This document shows, one piece after another, positions 4,368 through 20,198 of a DNA stretch of 37,665 nucleotides; the first letter of the stretch is position 1, and every line of letters starts with the position of its first letter. Origin of the DNA: Bacteroidales bacterium (GTDB taxonomy: Bacteria; Bacteroidota; Bacteroidia; Bacteroidales; GWA2-32-17); assembly GCA_013314715.1 (NCBI GenBank), contig JABUFC010000034.1, positions 1-37,665 of the forward strand, read 5' to 3'. The notes beneath the pieces are model-generated. The model made no database searches and was not told where the DNA came from. It saw only the letters and a list, made by a program, of their open reading frames with translations. The translations under genes were made by a program, and so were the position numbers.

Positions 4368-4391
4368 TAATTTTAGGATTATCAATTTTAA

Positions 4392-4420
4392 AGGAGGCTG
4401 GAATTTCCAGCCTCTTTTGT
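4392..4420 (+). terminator. Intrinsic terminator after the hydrolase gene
   Basis: GAGGCTGG (4394-4401) pairs perfectly with CCAGCCTC (4407-4414), followed by TTTTGTTTT. It lies about 25 nt after the stop codon of the hydrolase. Confidence 0.85.
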
Positions 4421-4570
4421 TTTACCCAGATTACGCATTAGCAATGCGTAAACGATAAAGTGCTTGTAATCAATTCAAAAGTATTTGAATTGAAACAATC
4501 ACTAAATCGGGGTTATCCCAAATAAATCAAGTAGTTTGGCTCATACTTCACCTCCTATTGATTAATTTCC
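4421..4570 (+). repeat. Dispersed structured intergenic repeat A, copy 1
   Basis: Shares a long non-coding sequence with 20294-20459 in the same orientation, including an ungapped near-identical core (CACTAAATCGGGGTTATCCC and flanks, about 4497-4545). Hairpin 1 is TTACGCATT/AATGCGTAA (4431-4439 with 4443-4451). Hairpin 2 is CAATTCAAA/TTTGAATTG (4471-4479 with 4484-4492). The 3' part can fold back through AAATCAAGTAG and CTATTGATT. No protein is encoded. It may be a MITE/REP-type element or a structured RNA. Confidence 0.8.
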
Positions 4571-4824: not shown

Positions 4825-4880
4825 ATAATAATTTGCTAACGTTTTATTAACAATTATTTAAAAACTATACATCACATTTG
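4825..4880 (+). promoter_or_regulatory. Pho-box-like 11-bp repeat operator and promoter of the TonB receptor
   Basis: Four hexamers, ATAATA (4825), CTAACG (4836), TTAACA (4847) and TTAAAA (4858), are separated by 5 bp each, giving an exact 11-bp period. Ten bp later comes ACATTTG (4874-4880), a -7-like element, then 12 nt to the ATG at 4893. The same geometry occurs at 10618-10673 and 20143-20198. PhoB/PhoP-type regulators bind 11-bp direct repeats, and the Bacillus PhoP unit is TTAACA-like; phosphate control here is inferred. Confidence 0.6.
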
Positions 4881-4892
4881 AAAAAAAATGTA

Positions 4893-6776
4893 ATGTCTAA
4901 AATAGTTATTTTATTTACTCTAATATCGACCTTGGTTTCTGCTCAGGATACGATTAAATTGAAAGAAGTTGTAGTTAGTGCTACACGCTATGAAAAAAGC
5001 TTAAATCAAACTTCTGATTACATTAAGTTAATATCTAAAAGAGATATAGAAAAATTAACTTTGGTATCGCCCGGTGAGCTTTTAAATAATACAGCTGGTA
5101 TCAATGCAGAAAATGGAACGGGTAAGGGTTATCCTAAACGTAGTACCATTAATATGAATGGATTTCCGGCAAACTATAATCTAAGTATGCTCAATGGTGT
5201 TAAAATATTAACAGAACATATCCATACTGGTCAAAACATTGATTACATACCCATAGAAATGATAGATAGAATAGAGATTATCGAAGGTGCTGCTTCTGCT
5301 CAATATGGCTCCGACGCTATGGGAGGAGTTATTAATATCATAACTAAAAAGCCGTCTGATAAACCAAATGGACAAATTACAACATGGGGCGGTAATAATG
5401 ATAATTATCTTGTTAGTAATTATATCAATACAAAGGTTAATAAGTTTGGTATTTCATCGTGCATGGGGTGGGAAAAATCAAATGGAATAGATATAACAAA
5501 ACCTACCAACAGAAAAAATTTTATGGGTTATTCGCGTCAATACATACTTAATAATTTAATGTATAATCTTTCAAATACATTTACAATACATTCGATGCTC
5601 AATATTTTTAACAACCGTATGGAATGGAATGATGGTGTAGATAAATATGCACATTTATATATGCCCAGTATAGGATATAGTTTACGTTTAAAAAAACTTG
5701 ACCAAAAGTTTAATGTTAATTATTCGCACTGGGAAGCACAGTTGTCGTCTGAACTAAATCAATTGATACAACCCGAATTAAATAATAAGCTAATTATAAA
5801 CGACCAACATGCTTTATTTTTTGGGGGTGATTTTAGATATATCATATTTCAACGCGAAAAAGTAACGAAAAATCATCAACAAATGGTTGGAGCTTATATA
5901 ACCAGTGATTCAAAATATGGAAAAGCATGGTATTCTACCTTATCGGTTAGAATGGATTATCCCGAAGAATATAAAGCGGTATTTTCGCCCAAATGGTCGT
6001 TAATGTATCGTCCCGATTCATCTTTCTTTGCCATAAAAACATCGATTGGGCGTGGTTTTCGTTATCCAACCGTACAAGATAAATATGAGTTAGCATTTGG
6101 ACATAGCGGTAGTGCCCTGCGTTTTGGGAATCCTGACTTAAAACCCGAATATAGTACCACATTGACTTTGGCCGGTGAGTTTATTCCTATTAAATACTTG
6201 AGTATTCAAGGCAAATATTACTACAATATGATACAAGATATGATTATACCTGTTTTACAAGGCAAATGGGATGTAGATACAACCAAATATGTATGGATGC
6301 GACAGAATATACAAAATACCGTCATTCATGGATACGAAATAAGTGGCATCTTTACGTTTAATAACGTTTCGTTTCAATTAGGATACAGCAATTCTATCTA
6401 TTCTTTCAATCAAAATATACGTCAGTTGGCTTATATTCCCGGAAGCTCATTGAATTCAAAAATTACATTCGAACAAAAAATAAATGACCATTTAGTGGTT
6501 AATATAAATTTCTTGTACAAGCAAGTATGGGGTCGTAAGGCATGGAACTGGAAACCAGCAGCAGGAAGCTCATTCGACGACGCAAGCGGGTTACTTACCG
6601 AATTAAAAGATTATCAATTATTATCGGGTGGTGTTCGATTAAAATACAAACAAACCGTAGGCATTTTCTTAAACGTAGATAATATGTTGAAACAAGAACT
6701 CGAATTATTAGATGATGCACTTATGATTATTGAACCTAAAATATATTATAAAGCCGGTTTAAATTTTTATTTTTAA
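4893..6776 (+). CDS. TonB-dependent outer-membrane receptor (BtuB/FepA-like)
   Basis: About 627 residues from ATG 4893. The frame also contains a TTG at 4878, but that overlaps the -7-like element, and ATG 4893 keeps the 29-nt spacing from the operator seen in two other genes. A signal peptide (ending LVSAQ) is followed directly by the plug domain (EVVVSATRYEKS, LNNTAGINAENG, IEMIDRIEIIEGAASAQYG, MGGVINIITKKP; about residues 20-150). The remainder is a beta-barrel rich in alternating aromatic strands and ending in the terminal Phe of outer-membrane proteins (GLNFYF). No CarboxypepD-like N-terminal extension and no SusD partner are present, so it is not a SusC-type receptor. It imports a ligand using TonB energy. 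The promoter and the downstream phosphatase-family gene suggest a phosphorus compound, but vitamin or metal chelates remain possible. Confidence 0.92.
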   Translation: MSKIVILFTLISTLVSAQDTIKLKEVVVSATRYEKSLNQTSDYIKLISKRDIEKLTLVSPGELLNNTAGINAENGTGKGYPKRSTINMNGFPANYNLSMLNGVKILTEHIHTGQNIDYIPIEMIDRIEIIEGAASAQYGSDAMGGVINIITKKPSDKPNGQITTWGGNNDNYLVSNYINTKVNKFGISSCMGWEKSNGIDITKPTNRKNFMGYSRQYILNNLMYNLSNTFTIHSMLNIFNNRMEWNDGVDKYAHLYMPSIGYSLRLKKLDQKFNVNYSHWEAQLSSELNQLIQPELNNKLIINDQHALFFGGDFRYIIFQREKVTKNHQQMVGAYITSDSKYGKAWYSTLSVRMDYPEEYKAVFSPKWSLMYRPDSSFFAIKTSIGRGFRYPTVQDKYELAFGHSGSALRFGNPDLKPEYSTTLTLAGEFIPIKYLSIQGKYYYNMIQDMIIPVLQGKWDVDTTKYVWMRQNIQNTVIHGYEISGIFTFNNVSFQLGYSNSIYSFNQNIRQLAYIPGSSLNSKITFEQKINDHLVVNINFLYKQVWGRKAWNWKPAAGSSFDDASGLLTELKDYQLLSGGVRLKYKQTVGIFLNVDNMLKQELELLDDALMIIEPKIYYKAGLNFYF

Positions 6777-6814
6777 CCCCAATATCGTAATTTTACAAGA
6801 AATTTAAAGCTTTC

Positions 6815-7864
6815 ATGACACTTTTTAAATCTTCGTTACGATTATTAGCTGTAATTGTTGTTTTGTTTATTGCTTATTTTATTGGGGTAATATTGCTTAA
6901 TACGCTTAACGATTACAAGCCCCAAAATCGTTATACCCGAATAACTGACAACGATGTTATGGAGAAAGATACGTTACATTTGCTTTCGTGGAACATTGGT
7001 TATGCCGGTATGGGCAAAGAAATGGATTTTTTTTACGATGGTGGTACTATGGTGCGTCCTTCGTATGATTATTACAAACAATGTTTCGATTCTATTTTAC
7101 ATTTTTTAGCTTCTATGGACCAGAAAAATGATATATACCTATTACAGGAAGTTGATTTCGATTCCAAACGTTCTTATTACATAAATCAAAAACAACAGAT
7201 TGCCCAAGTTCTTCAAAGTAAACAATATGCCGATTCGCTCATCAATTATCAGGTTTCGTTTGTTGCTTTTCCGTTGCATAATCCTATGGGAAAAGTATCG
7301 GCCGGTTTGGTAACTTTTTCAAAAACAAAACCAGTATGGTCCTTGAAGGTGTATTTGGGCGAAACCTATTCATGGCCTAAACAAGTATTTTTTCTCGATC
7401 GCGGTATATTGATTCATGCTTTTAAAACCCGAAAAGGGAAATACTTGTTTGTTGTAAACGTTCATCTATCGGCATTTGACGATGCCGTCGAAGCAAGGTC
7501 AAAGGAGTTAAGCATGTTGCAAACACTTGTCTCCGCTATTCTAAAAAATAATCATTACTTAATGGTTGCCGGCGATTGGAACATCAATCCACCTCAATTT
7601 CACTTCTCTAATAAGGTTAAATTTAAATACTTTTATACCGAACCCAATACTTATGAATTTAAAAATGCAACTTTTTATTCTGATACCTTAGTGCCAACTA
7701 ATAGAAAAGCCAATATGCCTTATATTAAACACAAAACACCTGTTACAACGTTAGATTATATTTTATGTTCAAATAATTTAGATATCATAAACTATAAAGT
7801 AATTGATTTAGATTTTAAGTTTTCTGACCATAATCCTATTGCCTTTTCGGTAGTGCTTAAGTAG
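6815..7864 (+). CDS. Membrane-anchored endonuclease/exonuclease/phosphatase-family protein
   Basis: 349 residues. An N-terminal hydrophobic segment (about 8-30) anchors the protein or serves as an uncleaved signal, placing the catalytic domain in the periplasm. The DNase I-like fold is recognised by its ordered motifs: WNIGY (Asn60), LLQEVDFDS (Glu112), VNVHLSAF (His217), VAGDWNINP (Asp254, Asn256), LDYILCSNN and FSDHNPIAF (Asp338, His339), so the catalytic set looks complete. The gene starts 38 nt after the TonB receptor stop with no terminator between, so co-transcription is likely. The family cuts phosphodiesters or phosphomonoesters in nucleic acids, phospholipids or inositol phosphates; the substrate cannot be read. 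The neighbourhood suggests phosphate release from an imported molecule. Confidence 0.88.
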   Translation: MTLFKSSLRLLAVIVVLFIAYFIGVILLNTLNDYKPQNRYTRITDNDVMEKDTLHLLSWNIGYAGMGKEMDFFYDGGTMVRPSYDYYKQCFDSILHFLASMDQKNDIYLLQEVDFDSKRSYYINQKQQIAQVLQSKQYADSLINYQVSFVAFPLHNPMGKVSAGLVTFSKTKPVWSLKVYLGETYSWPKQVFFLDRGILIHAFKTRKGKYLFVVNVHLSAFDDAVEARSKELSMLQTLVSAILKNNHYLMVAGDWNINPPQFHFSNKVKFKYFYTEPNTYEFKNATFYSDTLVPTNRKANMPYIKHKTPVTTLDYILCSNNLDIINYKVIDLDFKFSDHNPIAFSVVLK

Positions 7865-7902
7865 ATGTATCAGTATATAACAAGATCATTATTGTTAATA
7901 AT

Positions 7903-7926
7903 ATTTTAATCTTAAGAGATTAAAAT
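7903..7926 (+). terminator. Possible terminator hairpin after the EEP gene
   Basis: ATTTTAATCT pairs perfectly with AGATTAAAAT around loop TAAG, 39 nt after the stop codon. There is no T-run after it, so a terminator function is uncertain. Confidence 0.35.
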
Positions 7927-7987
7927 AAATTATCAGATTAATAGGCATATAAAATATAGAAAATTTAAAAGAATATTATTAATTAGT

Positions 7988-8017
7988 TTTGAGAATTGTC
8001 TAAAAGTAATATATTTG
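7988..8017 (+). promoter_or_regulatory. Bacteroidota promoter, TTTG - 18 bp - TATATTTG
   Basis: A -33 TTTG (7988-7991) and a -7 TATATTTG (8010-8017) are separated by 18 bp, matching the phylum consensus. The predicted leader is about 35 nt. The spacing is the same as at the ftsX promoter. Confidence 0.7.
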
Positions 8018-8056
8018 TGTCGATAATTTAAATATTTAATTATTAATTTTAACTAT

Positions 8057-9361
8057 ATGAAAATTAGATTATTATATTTTTCATTGTGTTATATTTTTTT
8101 TATTTCACAATTGTTTTCACAAGTTTCAATAAATACTTCAGGAAATAATCCTAATTCTTCATCAATGCTCGATGTAAGTAGTACTCAGCATGGAATGTTA
8201 ATACCACGTATGACTACTAGCCAAAGGAATGCAATAAAAACACCTGCTTCTGGTTTAATTATCTACAATACTGATAATAATATGTTGAACATATACACAA
8301 ATAATGGATGGTATGTTTTAGAAAGTATTTCAGTAGGAAGTTCAACAGGAACACTCTCATTGGGTGGTGGAGTAGCTATTAATGAAGATGGTTCTAGTCC
8401 AAGTAATTCTGCAATCTTAGATGTTAAATCAACAACAAGAGGAGTTTTATTACCAAGAACAACTACTGGTTCAATTTCAACTCCTGCGCAGGGTTTAATA
8501 ATATATAATACTTCAACCAATAAATTAAATTATTATAATGGCTCTTCTTGGATTAGTCCATGTCAAAGTTTTATTACTAATACAACTGGAACAGGGTCAT
8601 TATCACAAATAGGACTTTCTATAAGTGAAACATTATCATTGCCCGATCAAAGTGCTATCTTAGAAATTAAATCATCGAATAAGGGTTTATTAATACCTAG
8701 ATTATCTGAGGCACAAAGAAACGCATTATCACCCGTTCGGGGACTATTGTTGTATAATACGACATCAAATAAAATAAACTATTGGAATGGTTCTATGTGG
8801 TACGAAGTTTTAACTGCTCCACCTACAATTGGCGCTATAAGTGGAAATACTAATGTGTGTGCTGGTACAACGCAAAACTATAGTATATCACCAGTATCAG
8901 GTGCAACAAGCTATACGTGGACAGTCCCCTCAGGATGGACAATCAATAGTGGGCAAGGGACGACGTCTATTAATGTAACTGTTGGAACCTCGTCAGGGAG
9001 TGTGAGTGTTTTTGCAAGTAATGGATGTGGAAATAGTACAACACAAACATTAGCAATTACTGTAAATACTATTCCTAATGCACCTGTTGCTCAAGCCGCT
9101 TCAAATGTAGCAGATTATTCATTTACTGCAAATTGGTCTTCAGTATCTAACGCAACTACCTATTATTTAGATGTTAGCACAGATGATTTTAGTACTTTTG
9201 TCGCTGGATACAACAATTTAAATGTTGGGAATGTTACATCATATAATGTAACAGGATTAGAATGCTGGACAGTATATTTTTATAGAGTTAGAGCAGGAAA
9301 TGCCTGTGGAATTAGTGATAATAGTAATGAAAAAGATATTAAAACAACTTCTTGCAAATAG
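8057..9361 (+). CDS. Secreted protein with three tail-fibre-like repeats, a PKD/Ig-like domain and a fibronectin III domain
   Basis: 434 residues with signal peptide (ends QLFSQ). Residues about 23-256 hold three repeats of a pattern common in Bacteroidota exported proteins: SxxLDVxST-x-G-LIPR, then PAxGLIIYNT, then YNGSxW (about 23-90, 95-168, 180-250). Residues about 257-337 are a PKD/Ig-like domain (VCAGTTQNYSISPVSGATSY, then WTVPSGW) and about 340-434 a fibronectin type III domain. The protein stops at ECWTVYFYRVRAGNACG...TTSCK without any type A or type B T9SS sorting domain, which is unusual for this composition. It has its own promoter and is convergent with the PHP gene, 29 nt away. 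A structural or adhesive role is likely; no enzymatic motif was seen. Confidence 0.75.
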   Translation: MKIRLLYFSLCYIFFISQLFSQVSINTSGNNPNSSSMLDVSSTQHGMLIPRMTTSQRNAIKTPASGLIIYNTDNNMLNIYTNNGWYVLESISVGSSTGTLSLGGGVAINEDGSSPSNSAILDVKSTTRGVLLPRTTTGSISTPAQGLIIYNTSTNKLNYYNGSSWISPCQSFITNTTGTGSLSQIGLSISETLSLPDQSAILEIKSSNKGLLIPRLSEAQRNALSPVRGLLLYNTTSNKINYWNGSMWYEVLTAPPTIGAISGNTNVCAGTTQNYSISPVSGATSYTWTVPSGWTINSGQGTTSINVTVGTSSGSVSVFASNGCGNSTTQTLAITVNTIPNAPVAQAASNVADYSFTANWSSVSNATTYYLDVSTDDFSTFVAGYNNLNVGNVTSYNVTGLECWTVYFYRVRAGNACGISDNSNEKDIKTTSCK

Positions 9362-9390
9362 TTTTATGATATGTTACATGCTTATTTTTG

Positions 9391-10605
9391 CTAAATTTTT
9401 TCGAAAATCAATGTTTTCGATACATCATTAAATTCAACTTTTAATAAATAAAAACCGCTTGGCATGGGGCTAATATCGAATAAAAATTGATAATTATTTT
9501 TGTCGATGTATTCGTTAGCTACGTTTGTAATAAATTTTCCTTCGAGTGTTAATATATCGAGTTTTAGATTTCCAGCCTGCCGCGATTTAATGTCGATGGT
9601 TGCCATGCCGTAGTTGGGGTTAGGATAGAGTTGAATGTACGGAATATCGTTTTTATTGTCTGCCATATGCAACGGATTATTAAGAAATACGGGTTGTGTC
9701 CATGCATACGTATTGCTCATGCCCAATATGCCTTCGTTAATAAGCTCAATTCTTACATATGAGTGGCTTTGTAAAATAAACGATGCCGATGATCCGTTAA
9801 CTTCTTGTAAAACCTGATGACCTGGACCCCAAAATTTAATTTTGTTAGCATTCGACGATGAAATGTTAATACTTTTGTAGGTTCCATAGTCGTTAACTTG
9901 GTATTCTGTAATTTCTACCCCAGTAGAAGCATAGAATTTTCCATTGAGTAAAGCATTATATACCGCTTCTTTGGTAAGTGTATCTAACCATATCATATTC
10001 CATCCCTTGTTAAACTCTAAGGCTTCACTAACGGATGGATGAAAATCGTCGGTAGCACTTCCCCATACCACTTTACCGGCTGTAAGTACGGCGTCCCAAA
10101 TGCTTTTATCGTCGTGTGTTTGAACGGTTTCGGTGCCGGTATTCCAAATTTCGAGCATATGGGGTCCGTTTTGAAAAGAGATAATTTCTGGAGCACCTAC
10201 TTCCCAATTATCGTCGGTAAATGGACCTGGGAAATAATGGTTTAGCTGAATAAGCCCGCCTTGAGCAATAACCGAATCGATGGCTTGTTGGCAGGTAAAA
10301 TTTTCGTCGGGCATAATATTTTTCGATAAGAAAAATCCGTTCATGTGTCGTTTAAATGTTATCTCTTCGCTTGGAATACATAATACACCAGGCACATATA
10401 CGCTATCGGTTAAGAAATTATGATCGGTAATGAACATTATTTCGTATCCCTTATCTTTATATTTATTTACCAAGTCAACCGGACTATATCCACCATCACT
10501 GTTTGTTGTATGGCAGTGCATTTGGGCTTTGTAATATCGCCCTTGTCCATTAACTAATAATTGAAAGGTTGTAAAAATTAAAACGAAAAATAATTTTGTC
10601 TTCAT
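9391..10605 (-). CDS. T9SS-exported PHP-domain (CehA/McbA-like) metallohydrolase
   Basis: 404 residues. The signal peptide ends LLVNGQ. The PHP domain occupies about residues 23-235 with metal ligands in MHCHTTNSDGG (His30, His32, Asp37), ITDHN (Asp61, His62), IPSEEITF, LIQLNHYF and GSATDDFH. A short beta-domain follows. The last 80 residues are a type A T9SS sorting domain (IQLYPNPNYGMATIDI through LIFEKI). PHP-domain proteins hydrolyse phosphoester bonds, and the CehA/McbA branch includes esterase-type enzymes, so the substrate is open. Its promoter has the same 11-bp repeat array at the same distance from the ATG as the porin operon, which favours a phosphoesterase role on the cell surface. 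It is a single-gene unit separated from the next - strand gene by repeat B. Confidence 0.87.
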   Translation of the reverse strand: MKTKLFFVLIFTTFQLLVNGQGRYYKAQMHCHTTNSDGGYSPVDLVNKYKDKGYEIMFITDHNFLTDSVYVPGVLCIPSEEITFKRHMNGFFLSKNIMPDENFTCQQAIDSVIAQGGLIQLNHYFPGPFTDDNWEVGAPEIISFQNGPHMLEIWNTGTETVQTHDDKSIWDAVLTAGKVVWGSATDDFHPSVSEALEFNKGWNMIWLDTLTKEAVYNALLNGKFYASTGVEITEYQVNDYGTYKSINISSSNANKIKFWGPGHQVLQEVNGSSASFILQSHSYVRIELINEGILGMSNTYAWTQPVFLNNPLHMADNKNDIPYIQLYPNPNYGMATIDIKSRQAGNLKLDILTLEGKFITNVANEYIDKNNYQFLFDISPMPSGFYLLKVEFNDVSKTLIFEKI

Positions 10606-10617
10606 CTTTTTTTTTTC

Positions 10618-10673
10618 TAAAAGTATAAGTGTTTTATTAACAGTATGTTATTCTATCTTAAAGAGATTATTAA
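10618..10673 (-). promoter_or_regulatory. Pho-box-like 11-bp repeat operator and promoter of the PHP gene
   Basis: Reading the minus strand, hexamers TTAATA (10673-10668), TTTAAG (10662-10657), ATAACA (10651-10646) and TTAATA (10640-10635) follow an exact 11-bp period; the second unit is the weakest. Ten bp on is ACTTTTA (10624-10618), which with the preceding T reads TACTTTTA, one mismatch from TAnnTTTG. The ATG follows after 12 nt. The distance from array to ATG is 29 nt, as at 4825 and 20160. Confidence 0.5.
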
Positions 10674-10807
10674 GAATTAACCATCAATATTAAGTTAATA
10701 TTATTGGTAAGCAATTTTAGAACTATTGTAAAAACCCAAGTACCATGAATAAACAAATTCAACCAGACGAATCAAAATAGTAATATTTTTAGATTAAAAA
10801 TAAGTAA

Positions 10808-10990
10808 TTCAAATAATCCTACACCCACCGTCGTACCGAGCCTGTCGAGGTATAATCATACGCAAAACTAAATGAGCATTGGGGTCATTCTTCGTCAAGC
10901 TCAGAATGACGAGGAGTACGACAAGCTCAGAAAGACCAGCCATTCAAAACGCTCAAAATGACGGGAAATTCGATAGGTTCAGAATGATCT
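10808..10990 (-). repeat. Dispersed intergenic repeat B, copy 2 (inverted)
   Basis: The reverse complement of the 4612-4760 repeat, including ACCGAGCCTGTCGAGGTATA and the stretch GCAAAACTAAATGAGCATTG. It is extended by three or four decayed AAGCTCAGAATGAC units up to 10990. The remainder of the 10606-11026 gap is the PHP promoter and AT-rich sequence with no gene. Confidence 0.8.
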
Positions 10991-11026
10991 TTAATTCGAT
11001 TATTTTTTGTAGGTAACTTCAATTTA

Positions 11027-11920
11027 TTAAAGTAATTTTTGCGATGAAGGTGCTTTAAAACGATAACCTAATGATATTTCGTGATAAGAACTAGGAACAT
11101 ACATTTTTAAAAAGCTATTAAAACCATAACTGTATGAAAAAGAAAACGGTTGATAAATGATTCCGGCTGAAATGCCAAATTCTTTATATGATGCATACGA
11201 TATGCCTAAAGAATATTTTTCGTCGTATATGGCGGTTGTACTAAAATCGATATATACTTTTTGATATGAGTTTTTTGAAAATAAAATTGAAGGTTGAATC
11301 TCTATATTGTCCGAAACTTTAATTCTGTATGTGCCATGTAAAGTAAAGTATCGCGATATTTTATTTTGTTCATCGTCGTTTAAAGTAAGTTTGTAATTAT
11401 TTTGCAGTACATTTAAAACACTTAATCCAATATGAGCAACGCTATTATATAAAACTACACCGGTATTAAAATTAGGAACAATTGAACTTTCTTTAGAATA
11501 CGACAATGCAGGGTCGTTAACATCGGTAGGTGTATAATTGGTTTGGTTTAATGAAAATTGATTGATGCTGAGGCCTAATCCGGCAGCAAAGTTAAGCTCA
11601 TCGTTTAATTTAGCACGATATGCATAATTTAAACGTAACGAAAAATTATTCATATTCCCCCAACGGTTATTCAACAAACTGACTCCCCAGCCGGCTTGTT
11701 GATTGGTTCCGTTAGCAACAATTCCTTGAGTATAAGGGTGATTTTTTACATTTATCCATTGCTGATGCGTAAATAAATGTATAGAAGTATATTCGTAAAG
11801 ATAAATGCACGATGGGTTTATAATAGAATAATTGTTTGTATAGAAACGGTTGGGCATAATATTTTGACCGTTTACATTTAATGCTGCCAATAAGGTTATG
11901 GCTAAAAATATCTTGTTCAT
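11027..11920 (-). CDS. PorP/SprF-family T9SS-associated outer-membrane protein
   Basis: 297 residues with a signal peptide (ends LNVNGQ). The N-terminal pattern NIMPNRFYTNNYSIINPS, the QWINVKNHP segment and the glycine-rich alternating beta-strand body (GWGVSLLNNRWG, LRLNYAYRAKL, FAAGLGLSINQF) are those of the PorP/SprF family, of which SprF of Flavobacterium is needed for surface delivery of its partner SprB. It starts 11 nt after the SprB-repeat type B gene and is the last gene of the five-gene run. Such PorP-like proteins usually sit directly downstream of the type B substrate they serve, so it probably anchors or exports the 723-residue protein. Confidence 0.88.
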   Translation of the reverse strand: MNKIFLAITLLAALNVNGQNIMPNRFYTNNYSIINPSCIYLYEYTSIHLFTHQQWINVKNHPYTQGIVANGTNQQAGWGVSLLNNRWGNMNNFSLRLNYAYRAKLNDELNFAAGLGLSINQFSLNQTNYTPTDVNDPALSYSKESSIVPNFNTGVVLYNSVAHIGLSVLNVLQNNYKLTLNDDEQNKISRYFTLHGTYRIKVSDNIEIQPSILFSKNSYQKVYIDFSTTAIYDEKYSLGISYASYKEFGISAGIIYQPFSFSYSYGFNSFLKMYVPSSYHEISLGYRFKAPSSQKLL

Positions 11921-11931
11921 AATAGTTTGTT

Positions 11932-14094
11932 TTAATAAATAATATCTAAGGTTCCGCTAAAAGGTTCTTTATCGCTTAGTTTTAAATCGATGATATAAAA
12001 ATAGGAGCCCATAGGTAATTTTTTGCCATTGAGAGTTCCATCCCATGGTTCATAAACACCTGTATTTTCGTAAAGTTTTTTTCCACTGTTATCAAAAACA
12101 ATAACCGTTGGGTTGTTATACATTTCAATAAATTTTATTTCCCACGTGTCGTTTATACCATCCGCATTGGGAGTGAAAACATTGGGAATATCGAGGCAAA
12201 AATCATAGATAGATTCTAATTGTATGTTTTCAACTTTGCTGCAATTATGATTATCTGTAATAGTAACTTGATATTGTCCTAAGTGCAAATTACTTATTAA
12301 GGTATCGGTTTTTTGGTTCGACCAAAGTAAACTATAAGGTGGTGTTCCGCCCCATGTACGCAATACAATAGAACCATCATTTTTGCCATTGCAGGTCTCT
12401 TTATTTATAATGGCTAATGTAACCAATGAGTCGGGCTGTTGTATATTATATGTTTGTAGTTTGGTGCATTGATGTTGGTCTGTAATAGTTATAGTGTAAG
12501 TATTTGCTTGAAGCTGATTTATAGAATGATTGGTAGAACCATTATTCCACTGATAATTATAAGGCAAAGTTCCACCTGTAACGTTTAATTCAATAGCACC
12601 ATCGGCATTACCATAACATGAAACATTGGTTATGCTTGCTTCCACATGAATAGAATCGGGTTGGTTTACAAAAATAGAAAACATTCGTAAACATTGATTT
12701 TGATCCATGACGGTTAAGACATATTCATTGGCTTCGAGGTTTTGTAAGTTTAATTCTGTAGGTCCATGCAACCAAAAATGAGTAAAAGGTGCAGTACCCT
12801 GTGTAATGGTTACTTCAATGGAACCATTGTTACCACCAAAACAACTTACATGGTTAACCGTTGACTGAATTTCTATGCCTTGTATGTAATTAACAGTTAA
12901 AATGGTTGGTGTGCTTATGCATCCACGAGTTGTATCTTTTTGTACAATATAATACTGATAGGTCCCTGGTAGTTGCTCTTGTAGGTATAATGTATCGCCT
13001 TGATTAACAAGAGTTGTTAAGTTTTGATCAGCATACCAAAATAGGGGATATGTACCTTGAGCGACAATGGGTTGTAAAACTTGCCCGGTACATACCGTAA
13101 TATTGTTTTGCTGAATAATAGGAGAAGCTAAACGCGATACCGAATATTGTGCTATTGATGGATTGCTTTCACAGCCGGTAATATTGTCGGTTTGAACAAC
13201 ATAATAGCTAAAAACACCTTCTTGCGAGGTATTGGGCGAAATGCTGTTTCCTACTGCAAAAACATTGGTTAAAAGACTATCGGTGTACCAGCGAATGATT
13301 GAATTTGTATTGCCAGTAGCTGTTATATTTTGAGCTTGTTCGCCTAAACAATAGCTCAAATTATTGGGACTAATAATAGGAGCATTGGGCGACTGGTAAA
13401 CCGTAACGGTGGCACTATCGTGATAGGTTGTAACCGGTTTATAAAAATATGCATCAAAAATAAGTCCTCCGTTTACATAGTGAAGTGTAGTATTACCAAA
13501 AGTACTGCTGTTATTGGCGGGTAAGGTTATTACGGTAGCCACACCTGGCTGGTTTTCGGAGTCATCTACACAATTATCATTGCCATCCATTGAATCGTAG
13601 TCCCAAACCCAAAGAAAATAGGGTGGGTTATTGAGTTGAATATTAAATCCCCATGAATAAGGTGGGTTTTGATCGTTTATGTAATTGCTTTCTGTTGTAA
13701 AAACGGTATTATCGTTAACATCTTTGATAATAATATATGGATCTTGTGCTCCACCGAAGGGATCGTTGCAGTTTACTTGCGTAACAAGTATGCCTGTAAG
13801 ATAAAAACCTACTGTGTCGATGGTACAATCGTAGTGTATCGTATAGGTGCCAGGTTGAGAATAATTTGCAGTCGGGTTTTCAAGAGTTGACGTTTGTCCG
13901 TTGCCAAAATTCCATTGATAACTAAATCCGGTGGTTAAAAACGGATTAGGCGAAAAATTATTTGAAGGATGATTGTTCTGAATATTCAATTGGAGGGTAT
14001 TGCAGCCAGTACTTTGTTGAATAGTGAAATGCGTTTGAGCATAAACAACATCTATCAAAATAAAACTTAATAATAAAGATAAAATGTTTTTCAT
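11932..14094 (-). CDS. SprB-repeat surface protein with PKD-like domain and T9SS type B sorting domain
   Basis: 720 residues from ATG 14094, which gives signal peptide MKNILSLLLSFILIDVVYAQ and lies one base after the PhoD stop; ATG 14103 is also in frame and would overlap that stop. Residues about 40-235 form a PKD-like domain (FSYQWNFGNGQTSTLENPTA) apparently interrupted by an insert (GGAQDPYIIIKD). Two Ig-like repeats with CLGEQ/CTGQ motifs follow. Three SprB repeats begin near residues 411, 488 and 561 (VSCFGGNNGSIEVTITQGTAP, then related copies VSCYGN and ETCNGK). The C-terminal 90 residues are the gliding-motility-associated type B sorting domain (NVFTPNADGINDTWEI). It has no catalytic motif. 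As the non-enzymatic partner between phosphatases and PorP/SprF, it may be a surface scaffold or adhesin. Confidence 0.88.
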   Translation of the reverse strand: MKNILSLLLSFILIDVVYAQTHFTIQQSTGCNTLQLNIQNNHPSNNFSPNPFLTTGFSYQWNFGNGQTSTLENPTANYSQPGTYTIHYDCTIDTVGFYLTGILVTQVNCNDPFGGAQDPYIIIKDVNDNTVFTTESNYINDQNPPYSWGFNIQLNNPPYFLWVWDYDSMDGNDNCVDDSENQPGVATVITLPANNSSTFGNTTLHYVNGGLIFDAYFYKPVTTYHDSATVTVYQSPNAPIISPNNLSYCLGEQAQNITATGNTNSIIRWYTDSLLTNVFAVGNSISPNTSQEGVFSYYVVQTDNITGCESNPSIAQYSVSRLASPIIQQNNITVCTGQVLQPIVAQGTYPLFWYADQNLTTLVNQGDTLYLQEQLPGTYQYYIVQKDTTRGCISTPTILTVNYIQGIEIQSTVNHVSCFGGNNGSIEVTITQGTAPFTHFWLHGPTELNLQNLEANEYVLTVMDQNQCLRMFSIFVNQPDSIHVEASITNVSCYGNADGAIELNVTGGTLPYNYQWNNGSTNHSINQLQANTYTITITDQHQCTKLQTYNIQQPDSLVTLAIINKETCNGKNDGSIVLRTWGGTPPYSLLWSNQKTDTLISNLHLGQYQVTITDNHNCSKVENIQLESIYDFCLDIPNVFTPNADGINDTWEIKFIEMYNNPTVIVFDNSGKKLYENTGVYEPWDGTLNGKKLPMGSYFYIIDLKLSDKEPFSGTLDIIY

Positions 14095-14095
14095 A

Positions 14096-15994
14096 TTATT
14101 CATATTTAATTAGAGTTCTACTAATTATGTTTTTATTAGTATTGATAAATAAATTATAAGTCCCTGGTGCTAAATTTTCCGGAATCATCAATTGTAAATA
14201 TTCTAAATCGTGCAATCCTAATATAACTTTTTTATTAAAAACAACTTTCCCATTTATGTCGATGAGTTCTAGTTGAGCATCCTCAATATTTTTAGAATAT
14301 AATTGTAAATTTATGATTTGTTTAAATGGGTTTGGAGCAAGTGATAATAAAACCAAGTCGTTGGAGTAATTATGGGTTAAATGTGCTACAGAAGTTTGAA
14401 TAGGTAAAAAAGGTGCAAATGGCGGATTTGAATGAATAGGTAAGGCAAAAACCGAAGATTGACGAATAAAATTCTCGTTAAGTAATACATACCACGATTG
14501 GGCATTATATTCGTTTGTGCCTCCATAATTATTAATATCATCAACAAAAAACCAGTCGGCTTGAACCTTATTGGGTCGGATGTCTAAAATATAATAACCT
14601 CGATGTTCTAAATCTACCCAACGAATATGAGCATTAGAAGCATAAATAGCTGAGGCTCCAATACCACCACCAAATGAAATAGAGGGTGAGGTAATACTTG
14701 GTGATACAAATTCTACAGTGCCTACTCCTTGTCCGTTAGGACCATATTGACCAATGGTTTGATTGGGTACATCACAAGCCCACGAAGTATGAATATCACC
14801 GGTAGTAACAACCGTATTTTTTATATTCCATCCATAAAGATAATTTAAAAGACGTTGACGCTCGTATCGATAGCCATCCCATTGATCTTTATTTACTACT
14901 TGTCCGGCGATTAAAAGTGGACTAATCATTACTTGATTAACTAATATTTTCCATGTACAAGTATCGGTGTATTGCGATTTGTATAATTCGTTTGTAAGCC
15001 AATTATATTGCTTGGTTCCAAGAATAGTTTTATTAGGATCGTCTATACCAAGCCCGTTAGGGTCATCGCGACCTTCTAACCTTGTGTCGAGGCAGAATAA
15101 ACGAGCAAGTTTCCCGATTTTAAATAGGCGGTGAATTTTATTGTCAGGGTTTTGCGGGTCGTTTATTTCGCGAATCGGTATCCATTCATAAAAAGCTTGT
15201 TGACCTGCGTGTTTTCTATCTATCCAATTTCCTTCATTAGTTTGATGGTTTTCAGCACCATCTTTCCAACTATTGTTAGCTGTTTCGTGATCGTCATATG
15301 TTACAATCCATGGGTATTGTTGATGAGCTAAACGCATATCGGGGTCGAGACGATAATGAGCATAACGCATACGATAATCTTCGAGTGTAATACATTCCCA
15401 GTTGGGAGATAGTTCTCTATCGGGGTGTGTTCCATAATGATTGGTTTCGTATTCGTAAATATAGTCGCCATTGTGAATAATTAGGTCAATATTGTTTTTC
15501 ATGGTTAATGTATTAAGGGCGTTGTAATATCCATTATTGTAGTTAGTGCCTCCGATAAATGCTATTCGAAAATTGTCAAACGAGCTGGATTCAGCGGGTA
15601 ATGTTTTAGTTCTTCCAATAATTGAGTATAAATTAAATGCTTTAAAACGATAAAAATACCATGTGTTGGGTGATAAGCCCCCTACATCAATTTTTACTGT
15701 AAAATCGCGATTAGCACGGGTCCATTTTTGTCCAAATTTTACAATTTGTGTAAAATTGGTATCCAATGCCATTTGCCATTCTACTAATATGCTATCTACT
15801 TGTCCTGATGGAGTTACGCGGGTCCATATGATTACGGCAGTATCAAGGGGGTCGCCCGATGCTACACCGTGATAAAAAGGTGCATAAGCCGGATCTAAAG
15901 AAAAACTTAAACGATTTTTAAATTTATATTCTCGATGGTTTTGCGATAACATGCAAAGTGGCAATATTATTAATATTGCAATAAATAATTTCAT
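14096..15994 (-). CDS. PhoD-like alkaline phosphatase with T9SS type A sorting domain
   Basis: 632 residues. A signal peptide (ends CMLSQ) is followed by the PhoD N-terminal Ig-like domain (VASGDPLDTAVIIWTRVTP). The catalytic domain carries the metal-binding motifs IHNGDYIYEY (about 171), YDDHETANNSW (about 233) and TTGDIHTSWACD (about 398), with LDTRLEGRDDPNG between them. The end (LSLAPNPFKQIINLQL through LIKYE) is a type A sorting domain, so the enzyme is exported by T9SS rather than left in the periplasm. PhoD enzymes are Ca/Fe-type phosphomonoesterases or diesterases induced by phosphate starvation in many bacteria. Its ATG overlaps the TGA of the upstream phosphatase gene by four bases (ATGA), so the two are translationally coupled. 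Confidence 0.93.
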   Translation of the reverse strand: MKLFIAILIILPLCMLSQNHREYKFKNRLSFSLDPAYAPFYHGVASGDPLDTAVIIWTRVTPSGQVDSILVEWQMALDTNFTQIVKFGQKWTRANRDFTVKIDVGGLSPNTWYFYRFKAFNLYSIIGRTKTLPAESSSFDNFRIAFIGGTNYNNGYYNALNTLTMKNNIDLIIHNGDYIYEYETNHYGTHPDRELSPNWECITLEDYRMRYAHYRLDPDMRLAHQQYPWIVTYDDHETANNSWKDGAENHQTNEGNWIDRKHAGQQAFYEWIPIREINDPQNPDNKIHRLFKIGKLARLFCLDTRLEGRDDPNGLGIDDPNKTILGTKQYNWLTNELYKSQYTDTCTWKILVNQVMISPLLIAGQVVNKDQWDGYRYERQRLLNYLYGWNIKNTVVTTGDIHTSWACDVPNQTIGQYGPNGQGVGTVEFVSPSITSPSISFGGGIGASAIYASNAHIRWVDLEHRGYYILDIRPNKVQADWFFVDDINNYGGTNEYNAQSWYVLLNENFIRQSSVFALPIHSNPPFAPFLPIQTSVAHLTHNYSNDLVLLSLAPNPFKQIINLQLYSKNIEDAQLELIDINGKVVFNKKVILGLHDLEYLQLMIPENLAPGTYNLFINTNKNIISRTLIKYE

Positions 15995-18636
15995 AATTTT
16001 TGAAATTTATGTCTGGTTATAATGTTGTTTTTCTGAATAAATAGTATATAACTGCCAGAGGGTAATGAGCTAAGGTCTATTTCGTGGTATTTTTCATTTA
16101 TCGATTTTGTTTCTTTCAGTAAATGTCCCAAACCATTATACAATTGTAGGGTAGATGTGGTTGGAATATCAAATTCAATTTTAATTTTGTTTTTTGCAGG
16201 ATTAGGATAAACTTTAACATCATGATCTAAATTGTTGATAGATATATCATTTGATACATTGAAGAGAATAGAATATATTTTAGTGGTTACTTGGTCGGTG
16301 GCTTTTACTAAAACTATACCCGTTCGTTGAGACATGTTACCATATAAATTTGTAGGAGGATAAATAGTTACAGTAGCTGCTGGGTCATTGGGTTGTGCAA
16401 AAATTTCGACACTTGTTGTGCCCTGAGGAAGTTCAACCGTATAATTGGTTGTTGATGGCGAAAACGATGGAGCTAAAGAACCGGGATTAACAGATAAAGA
16501 ACTTAGGGTTGCATCGTTGTTCGTAGAATTTAATATTACCTCAGCGGTGTAAGTACAGGTTGAATTGTCGGCAGCAGTAACCGTATAGTTTACTGGGTTT
16601 GTAAAATCCTGAGCGACTCCCGATGCCGGACTTACACTAACACCCGTTATGGTTATCGTTGGCGTAAGAGAGGTTACATTAGTGCCCATTGGCATGTTTA
16701 CAGTTATATGAAGAGTTTGTTGATTGATAACGGTATTTCCAATTTGACCAGGTATGTTAAAAGCGACAATTTCTTTTGCTGAACCAGGAGCTACTGAAAA
16801 AGTTACACTATAAGTATTTTGAGCACTTTGATCAGAAGAGGTAACGATTACCGTTGCTGTTCCATTTACCGACGTCGCTTGTGTTATTTGAACAGTGGCT
16901 TGTGGGTCTTGTGGAGTAGCCGAAACAGTTGGAACCGTTGTGGTACCATATGGTAACGTTACACTGTAATTAAAAACTTGTGCATCAAACGGAGGAGTGA
17001 GTGTTCCCTGACTTACCGTTAAGTTGGATAAAAAGGCATTAGGTTGATTGGATAAAACAAATTCAACATTGTAGTTTGCTTCATTAACACCATTTTCGGC
17101 AATAACTTTAATTTTAGTTGTACGTTCGTTTTGATTTCCTTGTAAATTTGTAGCTTGGGTAATATAAACCGTTGCCCCCTGATGTTGTGGAACTGCTGTA
17201 ACGGTTGGAATAGTTGTAGTATTATAAGGTAGTTGAACGGTATAGTTAAAAGTATTGGCATTAAATGCTGGGTTTAAGCTACCATTATTAACATTTATGG
17301 AGTTTAGTAGAGCATTGCTGCTTAAATTTAAGTTATCTGTAATTTCTATAATTTGACCATTTGAAGGTGTCCAATATACCAATCCCGATGGAAGTGTGGC
17401 AGGGGGAGCATTTAGAGGAACCTGTTGAACATTTGCAGCATCGGAGGCATCGTTAAATTTTACAACTTGAATTTGAATTTTTTGCTTGGTAACCTTTATT
17501 ACGCCAAAACCGGCAAATTTTCCTTGGTTTCTAGTCCAATTAAAGGCTTGATTAGCATTATAGTAAGTATATAAGTTGCGTAAAGGAGCCCCCCAACACC
17601 CTTCGCCAAAGAATACAGTGCCGGCAGTATCATTTCGAATAAAGCCATTATCGCTACCCGATGCATTCGACGGAATAACAGGCCACGTTACTTTTTGAAC
17701 GTGGGTGTGTCCTTCCATTGCTAATCTCACTTTATATTGTTGAAATAAAGGTGCCCAACAGCTAATAAGTGTTGAAGTGGGTGAGTATTCGCCATGAGGT
17801 ACCAAAGGAATATGATATTGAACGGCCTTCCAATAGGGGGTATTATTAGAGGTTGAATATAATTGTAAATCGTTGGTGAGCCAGTTTAATTGTGTAGCAT
17901 CACAATCAATTTCAGAATTAAGATTATATATGCGAAGTAAATTGCCTCCAAAACTTAAAGCAAAATAAGCATTTACATTAGGTATATCAAAAAATTTTTC
18001 AATATCTTCCGATAATTCATGATTACCAAAAACCGGTACAATAGGAATCAATAATTTATTAGTGCCCAATGTTAATTGCCAATCGGTAAACCAGTCTTCC
18101 CAAAGGGAGTTGGTAGAGTTTGTAAGTACATAATCGCCACTAAATGCTACAAAATCGGGGCGTATTTTGGCAACTAACTGATTACCACGCTGACGACGTG
18201 GACGGCATTCGCTGGTTTCGAATTCTACAATAGGAACTCCGGTACGTGTATCGCCACCCGAAATAAATAAAATGGGAACATTAGGGTCATTCGAAAGGGT
18301 TTTGAATATCATACGTTGACTAACTCCCTGATCGTCTTTAATTACAAAGTAATAATAGGTATTGGGTTGAAGGTTGGTAATACGAGCAAAACGATTATTC
18401 ATGCCACGATGGCTGATGGTTCTATCGATAGACTTTGTAAATGGATATGAGTTGTAGTTTGTTCCATAATCGGTGGTTCCATAATATACGGTAGCATTGG
18501 TACTTGTGCCATCATCGCACCAGCCTATAACAATACTAGTTGAGGGATCGTCGCGAAATGATGCACGATAATATCTGGTTCCTGCAAAAGATGTTAATAT
18601 TTGAATGGCAAATAAAATACTAATAAGGGTTCTCAT
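15991..18636 (-). CDS. Purple-acid-phosphatase-like metallophosphoesterase with cadherin-like repeats and T9SS type A sorting domain
   Basis: 881 residues. The signal peptide ends TSFAG. Residues about 22-115 are the fibronectin-type N-domain of purple acid phosphatases (TSIVIGWCDDGTSTNATVYY, NLQPNTYYYFVIKDDQG). The metallophosphoesterase domain has GGDTRTG (about 127), FSGDYVL (about 165), GNHEL (about 204), QYHIPLVPHGEYSP (about 275) and EGHTHVQ (about 308), so all five metal-site blocks are present. Three cadherin-like beta-sandwich repeats follow (LNSINVNNGSLNPAF, LSNLTVSQGTLTPPF and LSSLSVNPGSLAPSF). A related domain (KEIVAFNIPGQIGNTVINQQ) lies between the second and third, and a type A sorting domain (VKVYPNPAKNKIKI) ends the protein. 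It would act on organic phosphate at the cell surface. It starts 12 nt after the porin stop. Confidence 0.92.
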   Translation of the reverse strand: MRTLISILFAIQILTSFAGTRYYRASFRDDPSTSIVIGWCDDGTSTNATVYYGTTDYGTNYNSYPFTKSIDRTISHRGMNNRFARITNLQPNTYYYFVIKDDQGVSQRMIFKTLSNDPNVPILFISGGDTRTGVPIVEFETSECRPRRQRGNQLVAKIRPDFVAFSGDYVLTNSTNSLWEDWFTDWQLTLGTNKLLIPIVPVFGNHELSEDIEKFFDIPNVNAYFALSFGGNLLRIYNLNSEIDCDATQLNWLTNDLQLYSTSNNTPYWKAVQYHIPLVPHGEYSPTSTLISCWAPLFQQYKVRLAMEGHTHVQKVTWPVIPSNASGSDNGFIRNDTAGTVFFGEGCWGAPLRNLYTYYNANQAFNWTRNQGKFAGFGVIKVTKQKIQIQVVKFNDASDAANVQQVPLNAPPATLPSGLVYWTPSNGQIIEITDNLNLSSNALLNSINVNNGSLNPAFNANTFNYTVQLPYNTTTIPTVTAVPQHQGATVYITQATNLQGNQNERTTKIKVIAENGVNEANYNVEFVLSNQPNAFLSNLTVSQGTLTPPFDAQVFNYSVTLPYGTTTVPTVSATPQDPQATVQITQATSVNGTATVIVTSSDQSAQNTYSVTFSVAPGSAKEIVAFNIPGQIGNTVINQQTLHITVNMPMGTNVTSLTPTITITGVSVSPASGVAQDFTNPVNYTVTAADNSTCTYTAEVILNSTNNDATLSSLSVNPGSLAPSFSPSTTNYTVELPQGTTSVEIFAQPNDPAATVTIYPPTNLYGNMSQRTGIVLVKATDQVTTKIYSILFNVSNDISINNLDHDVKVYPNPAKNKIKIEFDIPTTSTLQLYNGLGHLLKETKSINEKYHEIDLSSLPSGSYILFIQKNNIITRHKFQKL

Positions 18637-18648
18637 AATTTTTAATTT

Positions 18649-20130
18649 TTAAAATTTGTACTGTAATCTGAATGTAAAAACATCGTCTTTAATATCTTTT
18701 TCATATCCCGGCGAGGGCATACGTCCTAAGCGAATATCGCCGATATAAGGCTTAATTTTAGCTTTTTCGTTTACTACATGTTCGTAATAAAAGCAAGCCT
18801 TGAGATTTTTGTTTAGGGCTAAATTCAATCCAATACCATATGTCTCAAATTTAATGTCTGCGGGGCTTAAATAAGGCTTTATATAAGTCGGGTCGTTAAA
18901 GTACAAAGCTTCGTCGTAAATAATATCTTTGCCGGTAACTTGCGTATTAGGATCGTACCAATCGTATTTAAAAACAAGTTGATGTTCTGTTTTAAATAGG
19001 TTTTGTATAAAATAAATATATCCTCCATCGAAATTTCTTACAAAAGTATGATGAAACTTGTTGGTTGGACTTACAATAACAGGGTTATAGGGTTGGGGCT
19101 GATCGTACATAGGCCACGAAACACCTAATACCGGTCCACTTGGACTAAAGGAGTTCATGCCGTTATAAATTATATAAGCTTGTTCAACATCTTTGTAATT
19201 TACAGCGGCTGGTTGTATGCCCCAAATATACTCAGCCCTAATGGTTAGTCTGCCTAATGGAGAATTGAATTGTATTTCGCCATCAACTCCGTAATAGCGA
19301 CGTTCAATTCCTTTGCCCATAGTGCCAGCCGATTTGGATTCGTCCATTTTGATAACAAAACCTTTTGAGGTTCTGCCAGTAGTATCTTCAATGTTTTCGA
19401 AACGATAAATATAATATTTAGTGTTTGTATTGGAAGCAATGGTATCTACGGGTTCGTAAATATGATTTATTTGACCATTGTATAATGAAAAGCCTAACTT
19501 AATAGAGGTCTCATTTTTTTGAGTTTTAAAACCTATTCTACCTATAATGTCTTTAAAATTGTTTGTTTCATAATTGGTACCATTACCATTAACCACAGCC
19601 AAAGCAGCATCAAATTTGGAGAGTATATCTTTTTTACTATCAAAACCCAATTCAAAACCAAGGTCACGTTCATTGGGGAATAATGTTTGCACAACTCTTG
19701 AACGCTCGGGCGTTTCACGAAGCGATGACGATAGACCGATTTCTTGTCCAAAAGATCTGTTAAACATACCTCCTTTTAAATAGATAGATTCTATTAAAGG
19801 CTCAAAATATTGAAAATAAACGTCTTTTATTGCAATTCCACGCTCTGTTAAATCGAATGAAAAACGTGCATGGTTTCGTTGGTTATAGTAAGTAATATTT
19901 ACCCTGCCTCGTCTTATTGTAAAGCGATTATTGGTAAATCTGTTTACAAAATTACCTCCCGAAAAAGTAGCAAAACTATTGGTTGCAGCACCAACCGTAT
20001 CGGGAATAAAAAAGTACTGATATTGGCTTTGAATGTATCCGTTTACTTTAGTACTGTCTTTTTTTTCTTGTGCAATTGAATGACTATAATACCACACAAC
20101 TATAAGAAAAGCCAAAAAGAATGTTTTCAT
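18649..20130 (-). CDS. Phosphate-selective porin O/P-family outer-membrane channel
   Basis: About 493 residues from ATG 20130; an in-frame TTG at 20145 is embedded in the -7-like element and is rejected. The signal peptide MKTFFLAFLIVVWYYSHSIAQ is followed by the family's opening (KVNGYIQSQYQYFF), the NRFTIRRGRVNITY and FDLTERGIAIKDVYFQYFEP strands, the GGMFNRSFGQEIGLSSS loop, RSRVVQTLFPNERDLG, and a barrel ending DDVFTFRLQYKF with a terminal Phe. This is the OprO/OprP superfamily, whose Pseudomonas members import phosphate or polyphosphate; Bacteroidota members are numerous and not all tested. It is the first gene of the phosphatase operon, so uptake of the liberated phosphate is a reasonable inference. 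Confidence 0.88.
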   Translation of the reverse strand: MKTFFLAFLIVVWYYSHSIAQEKKDSTKVNGYIQSQYQYFFIPDTVGAATNSFATFSGGNFVNRFTNNRFTIRRGRVNITYYNQRNHARFSFDLTERGIAIKDVYFQYFEPLIESIYLKGGMFNRSFGQEIGLSSSLRETPERSRVVQTLFPNERDLGFELGFDSKKDILSKFDAALAVVNGNGTNYETNNFKDIIGRIGFKTQKNETSIKLGFSLYNGQINHIYEPVDTIASNTNTKYYIYRFENIEDTTGRTSKGFVIKMDESKSAGTMGKGIERRYYGVDGEIQFNSPLGRLTIRAEYIWGIQPAAVNYKDVEQAYIIYNGMNSFSPSGPVLGVSWPMYDQPQPYNPVIVSPTNKFHHTFVRNFDGGYIYFIQNLFKTEHQLVFKYDWYDPNTQVTGKDIIYDEALYFNDPTYIKPYLSPADIKFETYGIGLNLALNKNLKACFYYEHVVNEKAKIKPYIGDIRLGRMPSPGYEKDIKDDVFTFRLQYKF

Positions 20131-20142
20131 GATTTTTTTTCT

Positions 20143-20198
20143 CAAATTACTTGTTTTTCTATTATGAAATTGTTAGCAGATTATTAAGAAAATGTTAA
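20143..20198 (-). promoter_or_regulatory. Pho-box-like 11-bp repeat operator and promoter of the porin/phosphatase operon
   Basis: Reading the minus strand, hexamers TTAACA (20198-20193), TTAATA (20187-20182), CTAACA (20176-20171) and ATAATA (20165-20160) recur every 11 bp. Ten bp on lies TAATTTG (20149-20143), then 12 nt to ATG 20130. The array covers roughly the -19 to -57 region where PhoB-type activators usually bind. Phosphate regulation is inferred from this layout and the operon content. Confidence 0.62.

Follow-up and report, generated by a model that had tools for sequence, protein, structure and literature searches.

Phased TTAACA-like arrays at three promoters of a Bacteroidales bacterium as probable Pho boxes of a phosphate regulon

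Three promoters on a 37,665-nt stretch of DNA from a Bacteroidales bacterium (GWA2-32-17; assembly GCA_013314715.1, contig JABUFC010000034.1, positions 1 to 37,665; GC content 32%) each carry four hexamers resembling TTAACA, repeated every 11 bp and set at a fixed distance from a -7 promoter element. The whole stretch is called the window below. Judged from sequence, the three arrays (A, B and C) are probably Pho boxes of a Bacteroidales phosphate regulon, a reading to which we give a probability of about 0.84; A and C are strong and B is weaker. The arrays probably act as a phosphate-starvation switch because, in relatives, genes for phosphate uptake are preceded by the same four-step site with its constant spacing to the core promoter. 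A phosphate-starvation regulon linking A, B and C had been proposed in a first-pass annotation; it now gains support from arrays that precede porin-pst genes in relatives, and sixA-ppk and a lipoprotein/receptor pair in the same genome. The arrays, their register, their conservation across families and the set of genes behind them are direct observations. Labels consisting of G, C or L with a number are working names of genomes, contigs and loci.

Array structure and register

Array A (4825..4863, plus strand) reads ATAATA-N5-CTAACG-N5-TTAACA-N5-TTAAAA, array B (10635..10673, minus strand) TTAATA-N5-TTTAAG-N5-ATAACA-N5-TTAATA, and array C (20160..20198, minus strand) TTAACA-N5-TTAATA-N5-CTAACA-N5-ATAATA. 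The first-pass reading of four TTAACA-like hexamers per array with an 11-bp period, at 4825 (+), 10673 (-) and 20198 (-), agrees letter for letter with the sequence. Each array is followed, in register, by a counterpart of the -7 element, whose consensus is TAnnTTTG (PMC7366714): CACATTTG for A (4873..4880, plus strand), TACTTTTA for B (10618..10625, minus strand) and GTAATTTG for C (20143..20150, minus strand). With the hexamers at offsets 0, 11, 22 and 33, TTTG or TTTA begins at offset 52 in all three arrays, as the earlier claim of a -7-like element in a shared position had it, and in five further sites of the same genome. Only 9 nt lie between the last hexamer and the 8-bp element, and the array therefore covers the -33 region. 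In F. johnsoniae, the -33 element could not be identified (PMC7366714).

The arrays had also been described as ending exactly 29 nt before the start codon. This is correct for A, B and C, where the codons (4893, 10605 and 20130) are all in-frame ATGs of long open reading frames (ORFs), but it fails as a general rule. The 56-mer and the ATG are separated by 11 nt in A, B and C vs. 19, 26 and 31 nt in three other phosphate-type sites of the genome. The invariant spacing is the one between array and -7 element; the 29-nt distance is a by-product of short leaders and not part of the code. The starts listed for the ORFs behind A and C are TTG codons (4878 and 20145), 15 nt upstream of the in-frame ATGs. 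The -7 element and the ATG are 12 nt apart (4880-4893, 10605-10618, 20130-20143), so that transcripts started from this -7 element would have almost no leader. In B. thetaiotaomicron, 5' untranslated regions shorter than 10 nt are rare, at about 3.7% (PMC7366714).

A motif learned from porin promoters of relatives

The gene after array C encodes an OprO/OprP-like porin with relatives in which the promoter can be compared. The porin is present in 33 of 149 genomes, the own genome included, and six named-record loci were added. Among the 28 porin-bearing genomes covered by both searches (the own one included), 21 have a PstS-type gene (PF12849) within 1.2 kb of the porin, while in six (G001, G039, G042, G052, G098 and G141) that gene lies elsewhere. 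By domains and order, the run in G008 consists of a PhoB-like OmpR-family regulator, the porin, PstS, PstC, PstA, PstB and PhoU; in G004 the layout of ORFs and the type of regulator are the same. For both regulators the two best NCBIfam families are PhoB models, both below cut-off, and the one of G008 is 49% identical to the PhoB candidate of the own genome.

For a de novo motif, the 250 nt preceding each of 35 porin genes were collected; four same-genus sequences and one near-duplicate were dropped, which left 30, namely 26 from other genera and four from named-record loci (51-66% identical, kinship unstated). The window and known same-genus loci were thus outside the training set. The expectation-maximization search used 1,980 seeds, all taken from the 30 training sequences. 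The motif width of 56 and the forward strand were chosen with the window arrays known, but the letters were not. The result, TAACa.t....TAAt......tTAAc...gagGtAACA.t.......Ta..TTTGC, consists of four units 11 bp apart followed by the -7 element. Scores of at least 12.6 are reached by 28 of the 30 promoters, the exceptions being L033 and L037; in two training promoters, L082 and L083, clear TTAACA units cannot be made out by eye. These two and L081 are porin relatives from records of one SulCav project titled Nitrosospira, Acetofilamentum and Paludibacter, of which at least the Nitrosospira title looks wrong for a Bacteroidales-type gene. Overall, many families of the order have these hexamers, in this register, before their porin genes.

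Over 75,220 positions of the window (both strands), the learned matrix places A (12.1), C (12.1) and B (8.7) first to third, and the next site scores 4.3. It is very improbable that the arrays are a chance product of AT-rich promoter DNA, that is, phased T/A runs (curvature or UP-like elements) before an ordinary -7 element. The low GC content favors such an origin, as do TTAACA patterns that are no commoner than in controls and column-permuted matrices whose best window score is at least 12.0 in 3 of 300 cases. On the other side stand the first three ranks given by an independent matrix, a third-best score of at least 8.6 in only 1 of the 300 permutations, and the recurrence of hexamers and register across families. 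A comparison with control DNA had been suggested from the outset; the counts of TTAACA patterns in the genome do not exceed those of reversed patterns (75 vs. 86 for two units, 33 vs. 40 for three). Because of this lack of enrichment, frequency is dropped here as an argument and position is used instead.

The three arrays do not stand equally well. Simulated 37.7-kb single strands (n = 60) have a mean maximum of 5.9 and a highest score of 10.0, so that B taken alone is within the range of chance. A hand-made TTAACA consensus ranks A first among the plus-strand sites and C first among those of the minus strand; B scores 19.2, the same as an AT-rich site at 37138 (-) and less than another at 37102 (+), which has 19.4. 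A profile made from sequence only, with 23 promoters picked from the 30 for alignment, finds A at 13.9 bits (E 0.0037) and C at 15.9 bits (E 0.00084) in the window; B is not among the profile matches listed, either in the window or in the own genome. It is conceivable, and rather less than an even bet, that A and C are Pho boxes and B is a chance resemblance, with the PHP gene behind it outside the regulon. The element TACTTTTA, the missing profile match, the height of the simulated maxima and weak sites at the orthologues in two genus members (3.5 and 2.6) point that way. Against it, B is the third-best site of the window, its 56-mer ends 11 nt before the gene and it has the register of A and C, and in both genus orthologues an in-phase site stands directly before the gene.

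Further sites, putative target genes and the candidate regulator

The Pho-box reading draws further on sites elsewhere in the genome. In the profile scan, 150 of 6952 first-look candidates were scored, giving 43 matches at E ≤10; gene context was examined for 17 of the 43, and the lower ranks include possible promoter positions. Six of the ranks 1-13 are in promoter position, five of them before sixA-ppk (rank 1, 19.3 bits, 33 nt before the gene), a secreted lipoprotein (rank 2, 19.2 bits, 27 nt), the genes of C (rank 3, 15.9 bits) and A (rank 6, 13.9 bits), and a TonB receptor that adjoins the rank-2 lipoprotein (rank 13, 12.8 bits, 20 nt). The sixth, at C5:72579, is a poor array with a score of 7.1 before a secreted 721-aa WD40-like protein. 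Besides this C5 site, ranks 7-12 comprise an 11-bp tandem repeat on C85 and four short matches without evident gene start. The C85 sites were rejected as a promoter on account of that repeat. The array itself (L215, ~4310-4440; unit like TAATGATTATG) lies 3' of a VapE-like gene and has the appearance of iterons in a mobile element.

A scan of 242 kb of own DNA yields 14 sites scoring at least 7, in a collection that is not a random sample because it includes the window and was partly picked by pattern and profile matches. It also took in longer stretches around the C29, C2, C41 and C60 matches, and one 3-kb stretch is counted twice. Seven of the sites precede an ORF: A, B, C and those before sixA-ppk, the lipoprotein, its receptor and the WD40-like protein. 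The lipoprotein has no Pfam, NCBIfam or PDB match at the thresholds used. We tentatively call it FI/FII-like for its lipobox-like start and its TonB-receptor neighbor. A region of the starvation-induced lipoprotein type occurs twice within one open frame in L235 (G118:C77) and in G102:C23:53510-55693 (1,012 and 1,230 aa).

The matrix trained on porin promoters was applied to three other groups, with 28 of 29 lipoprotein loci, 27 of 29 PhoR-like kinase loci and 20 of 25 pit-type loci analysable (19 of the latter with enough upstream DNA). Among the lipoprotein promoters, a family outside training (one of them same-genus), 15 of 28 score at least 8. None of the 27 PhoR-like kinase promoters does so, with weak in-register sites in the genus only; sites of at least 8 stand elsewhere in 6 of the 27 kinase loci. 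The own pit operon, found through an exact TTAACA-N5-TTAACA match, has an array in the same register with a score of 5.4, and its relative in G001 scores 14.8. Exact matches on C20, C26 and C30 have no clear phosphate gene behind them. C20 (L012, 2875-2934) and C46 (L015, 630-689) share a set of two TTAACA-pair matches 43 bp apart; those on C20 are near genes that by eye resemble cas genes (a 150-aa Cas2-like and a 348-aa Cas1-like product).

The features of a Pho box can be followed through these data. The de novo motif and each of the three arrays contain four tandem direct repeats of about 11 bp. The register to the core promoter is held at the own sites and, across relatives, in an ungapped motif of 56 columns. 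Placement at phosphate genes is seen for porin-pst in relatives and for sixA-ppk and porin-PhoD in the own genome, with a modest case at pit.

Other results weigh against the Pho-box reading. The genome scan for matches before phosphate genes, proposed with the first-pass annotation, succeeded for sixA-ppk, the lipoprotein/receptor pair and A and C of the window, but was modest for pit and weak for phoR, whose own promoter has an in-phase array scoring 1.0. The E-values of the own-genome profile are weak (best 0.005), the matches of rank 4 and 5 (C16:19648, which lies between two convergent genes, and C6:64675, which falls within a gene) are not promoters, and no known phosphate gene occurs at ranks 7-12. 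Of the 28 lipoprotein promoters, 13 score below 8; the best site is elsewhere in 13 of the loci, and 9 have a site of at least 8 elsewhere. Only 5 of the 19 pit-type promoters, the own one included, score at least 5, and that of the genus member G002 has -2.8. The TonB receptor of A has no match at E ≤1e-40 in 40 other genomes, which leaves A without an orthologue for comparison. The low scores of the B orthologues, the pattern counts given above and the below-cut-off scores of the PhoB candidate (see below) belong here as well, as do two expression results from F. johnsoniae: OprP is not induced by phosphate depletion and an endonuclease/exonuclease/phosphatase gene is only slightly induced (1.15; Table 1, PMC8115612).

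The candidate for the binding protein is an OmpR-family regulator at C58:8664-9353, encoded beside a PhoR-like kinase. Its two best NCBIfam families are PhoB models, both below cut-off (212.5 vs. 296.2; 210 vs. 270), and among PDB sequences it is matched best by MtrA, RegX3 and PrrA rather than PhoB. For the kinase, the best NCBIfam families are PnpS and PhoR, again below cut-off. Another OmpR-family regulator might bind the arrays instead, so that the phosphate genes would be targets of that system. This is improbable, even though the genome has two OmpR-family regulators, the candidate misses the family cut-offs and other members of the family likewise use tandem sites. The PhoB models are still the two best families of the candidate, a regulator 49% identical to it (G008) and one with the same best families (G004) stand directly before the porin run, and the clear target genes are phosphate genes. 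No PstS-type (PF12849) match was found in the own genome, which is 99.5% complete as listed; PstC, PstA and PstB were not searched for. The only PhoU domain (PF01895) in it belongs to a protein cut by a contig end. PstS thus seems to be absent from the own genome and its PhoU is doubtful; a PhoBR-like pair and pit are still encoded in it, and the genus member G001 has a PstS-type match.

Array A precedes a TonB-dependent receptor with Plug and barrel domains by Pfam (4893..6776, plus strand) and, as second gene, an endonuclease/exonuclease/phosphatase family protein (6815..7864, plus strand; PF03372). Behind B lies a gene for a CehA/McbA-type PHP-fold metallohydrolase (9391..10605, minus strand), over the cut-off of NF038032 and with a sorting tail of the type IX secretion system (T9SS; TIGR04183); its Pfam PHP match is below the cut-off. 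The run behind C, all on the minus strand, begins with the OprO/OprP-like outer-membrane porin (18649..20130), so assigned from the family profile and a low-confidence structure model. It continues with a purple-acid-phosphatase-like metallophosphoesterase with a T9SS tail (15991..18636; PF16656, PF00149, PF18962), a PhoD-type alkaline phosphatase with a T9SS tail (14096..15994; PF09423, PF16655, PF18962) and an SprB-repeat protein with a type B T9SS tail (11932..14103, by domain matches), and ends with a PorP/SprF-family membrane protein (11027..11920; PF11751). The window porin itself has no Pfam match, including to phosphate-selective porin O/P (PF07396), which is matched at E ≤0.1 by 10 of the 27 aligned members of its family. 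A search of PDB sequences with the family profile gives Porin O (E 1.7e-5) and Porin P (E 7.3e-4), in both cases over the last ~80 positions. OprP is also the best fold match of the structure model, but this is supporting evidence only because the model is poor (mean predicted local distance difference test score 56).

From these elements we infer a binding protein, an activation step and a phosphate signal. In phosphate starvation, the PhoB-like response regulator (candidate C58:8664-9353) would be phosphorylated and would then occupy the four 11-bp units in head-to-tail fashion. The bound regulator may recruit RNA polymerase with sigma-ABfr in place of a -33 element. In this way A would switch on the TonB receptor/phosphatase pair, B the secreted PHP hydrolase, and C the OprP-like porin together with the run of T9SS-secreted phosphatases. 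A wider proposal, which we offer tentatively and hold to be doubtful as a whole, is an order-wide Pho promoter code: four TTAACA-N5 units in exact register with the sigma-ABfr element TAnnTTTG, and PhoB replacing the -33 element. Here such a code would work without PstS or a normal PhoU and would drive T9SS phosphatases and an OprP-like porin, with nearly leaderless mRNAs at the window genes.

Comparison with known systems

With a consensus at base level and a fixed register, phosphate regulons could be predicted in Bacteroidales of gut, soil and sea, in which no role is known for several of the lipoproteins and TonB receptors induced by starvation. Such a consensus would also provide a concrete model for activation of the unusual sigma-ABfr promoters by a response regulator. 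As no PstS-type match was found in the own genome, one may ask how PhoR is informed of phosphate there. No published Bacteroidota Pho-box sequence was found in the titles and abstracts searched, with subscription literature mostly outside reach; the kind of system is known, and the consensus and register for Bacteroidales seem to be undescribed in the searchable literature.

In E. coli, the Pho box overlaps the -35 region. Like the arrays described here, the boxes of the E. coli PhoB regulon are tandem 11-bp direct repeats at phosphate genes, and PHO boxes in general are built from tandem 11-nt units whose consensus differs between species (PMC4415409). Unlike the E. coli box with its CTGTCAT unit, the window arrays have TTAACA-like units, four in number, and a -7 element of the Bacteroidota type TAnnTTTG. 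The PhoP boxes of B. subtilis are TTAACA-like hexamers with spacers of about 5 bp, although the string was absent from the papers searched for it; they belong to another phylum and are used with another sigma factor.

Closer relatives offer parallels in regulation and in gene content. PhoB control in Bacteroidota is known from work with mutants and electrophoretic mobility shift assays. In B. fragilis, of the same phylum, PhoB of the PhoRB system binds a fragment of the pstC promoter in such an assay; the available part of the article gives no box sequence (PMC3547664). The main text on the F. johnsoniae starvation set does not mention a Pho box, promoter, motif or binding site (PMC8115612). 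That set shares gene types with the own-genome sites: phosphate depletion strongly induces the lipoproteins FI and FII, the TonB receptors adjoining them and a gene resembling polyphosphate kinase (PMC8115612). A further parallel is offered by the putative Pho boxes described near plcP in marine bacteria, which are predicted PhoB sites at phosphate-starvation genes (PMC4796936).

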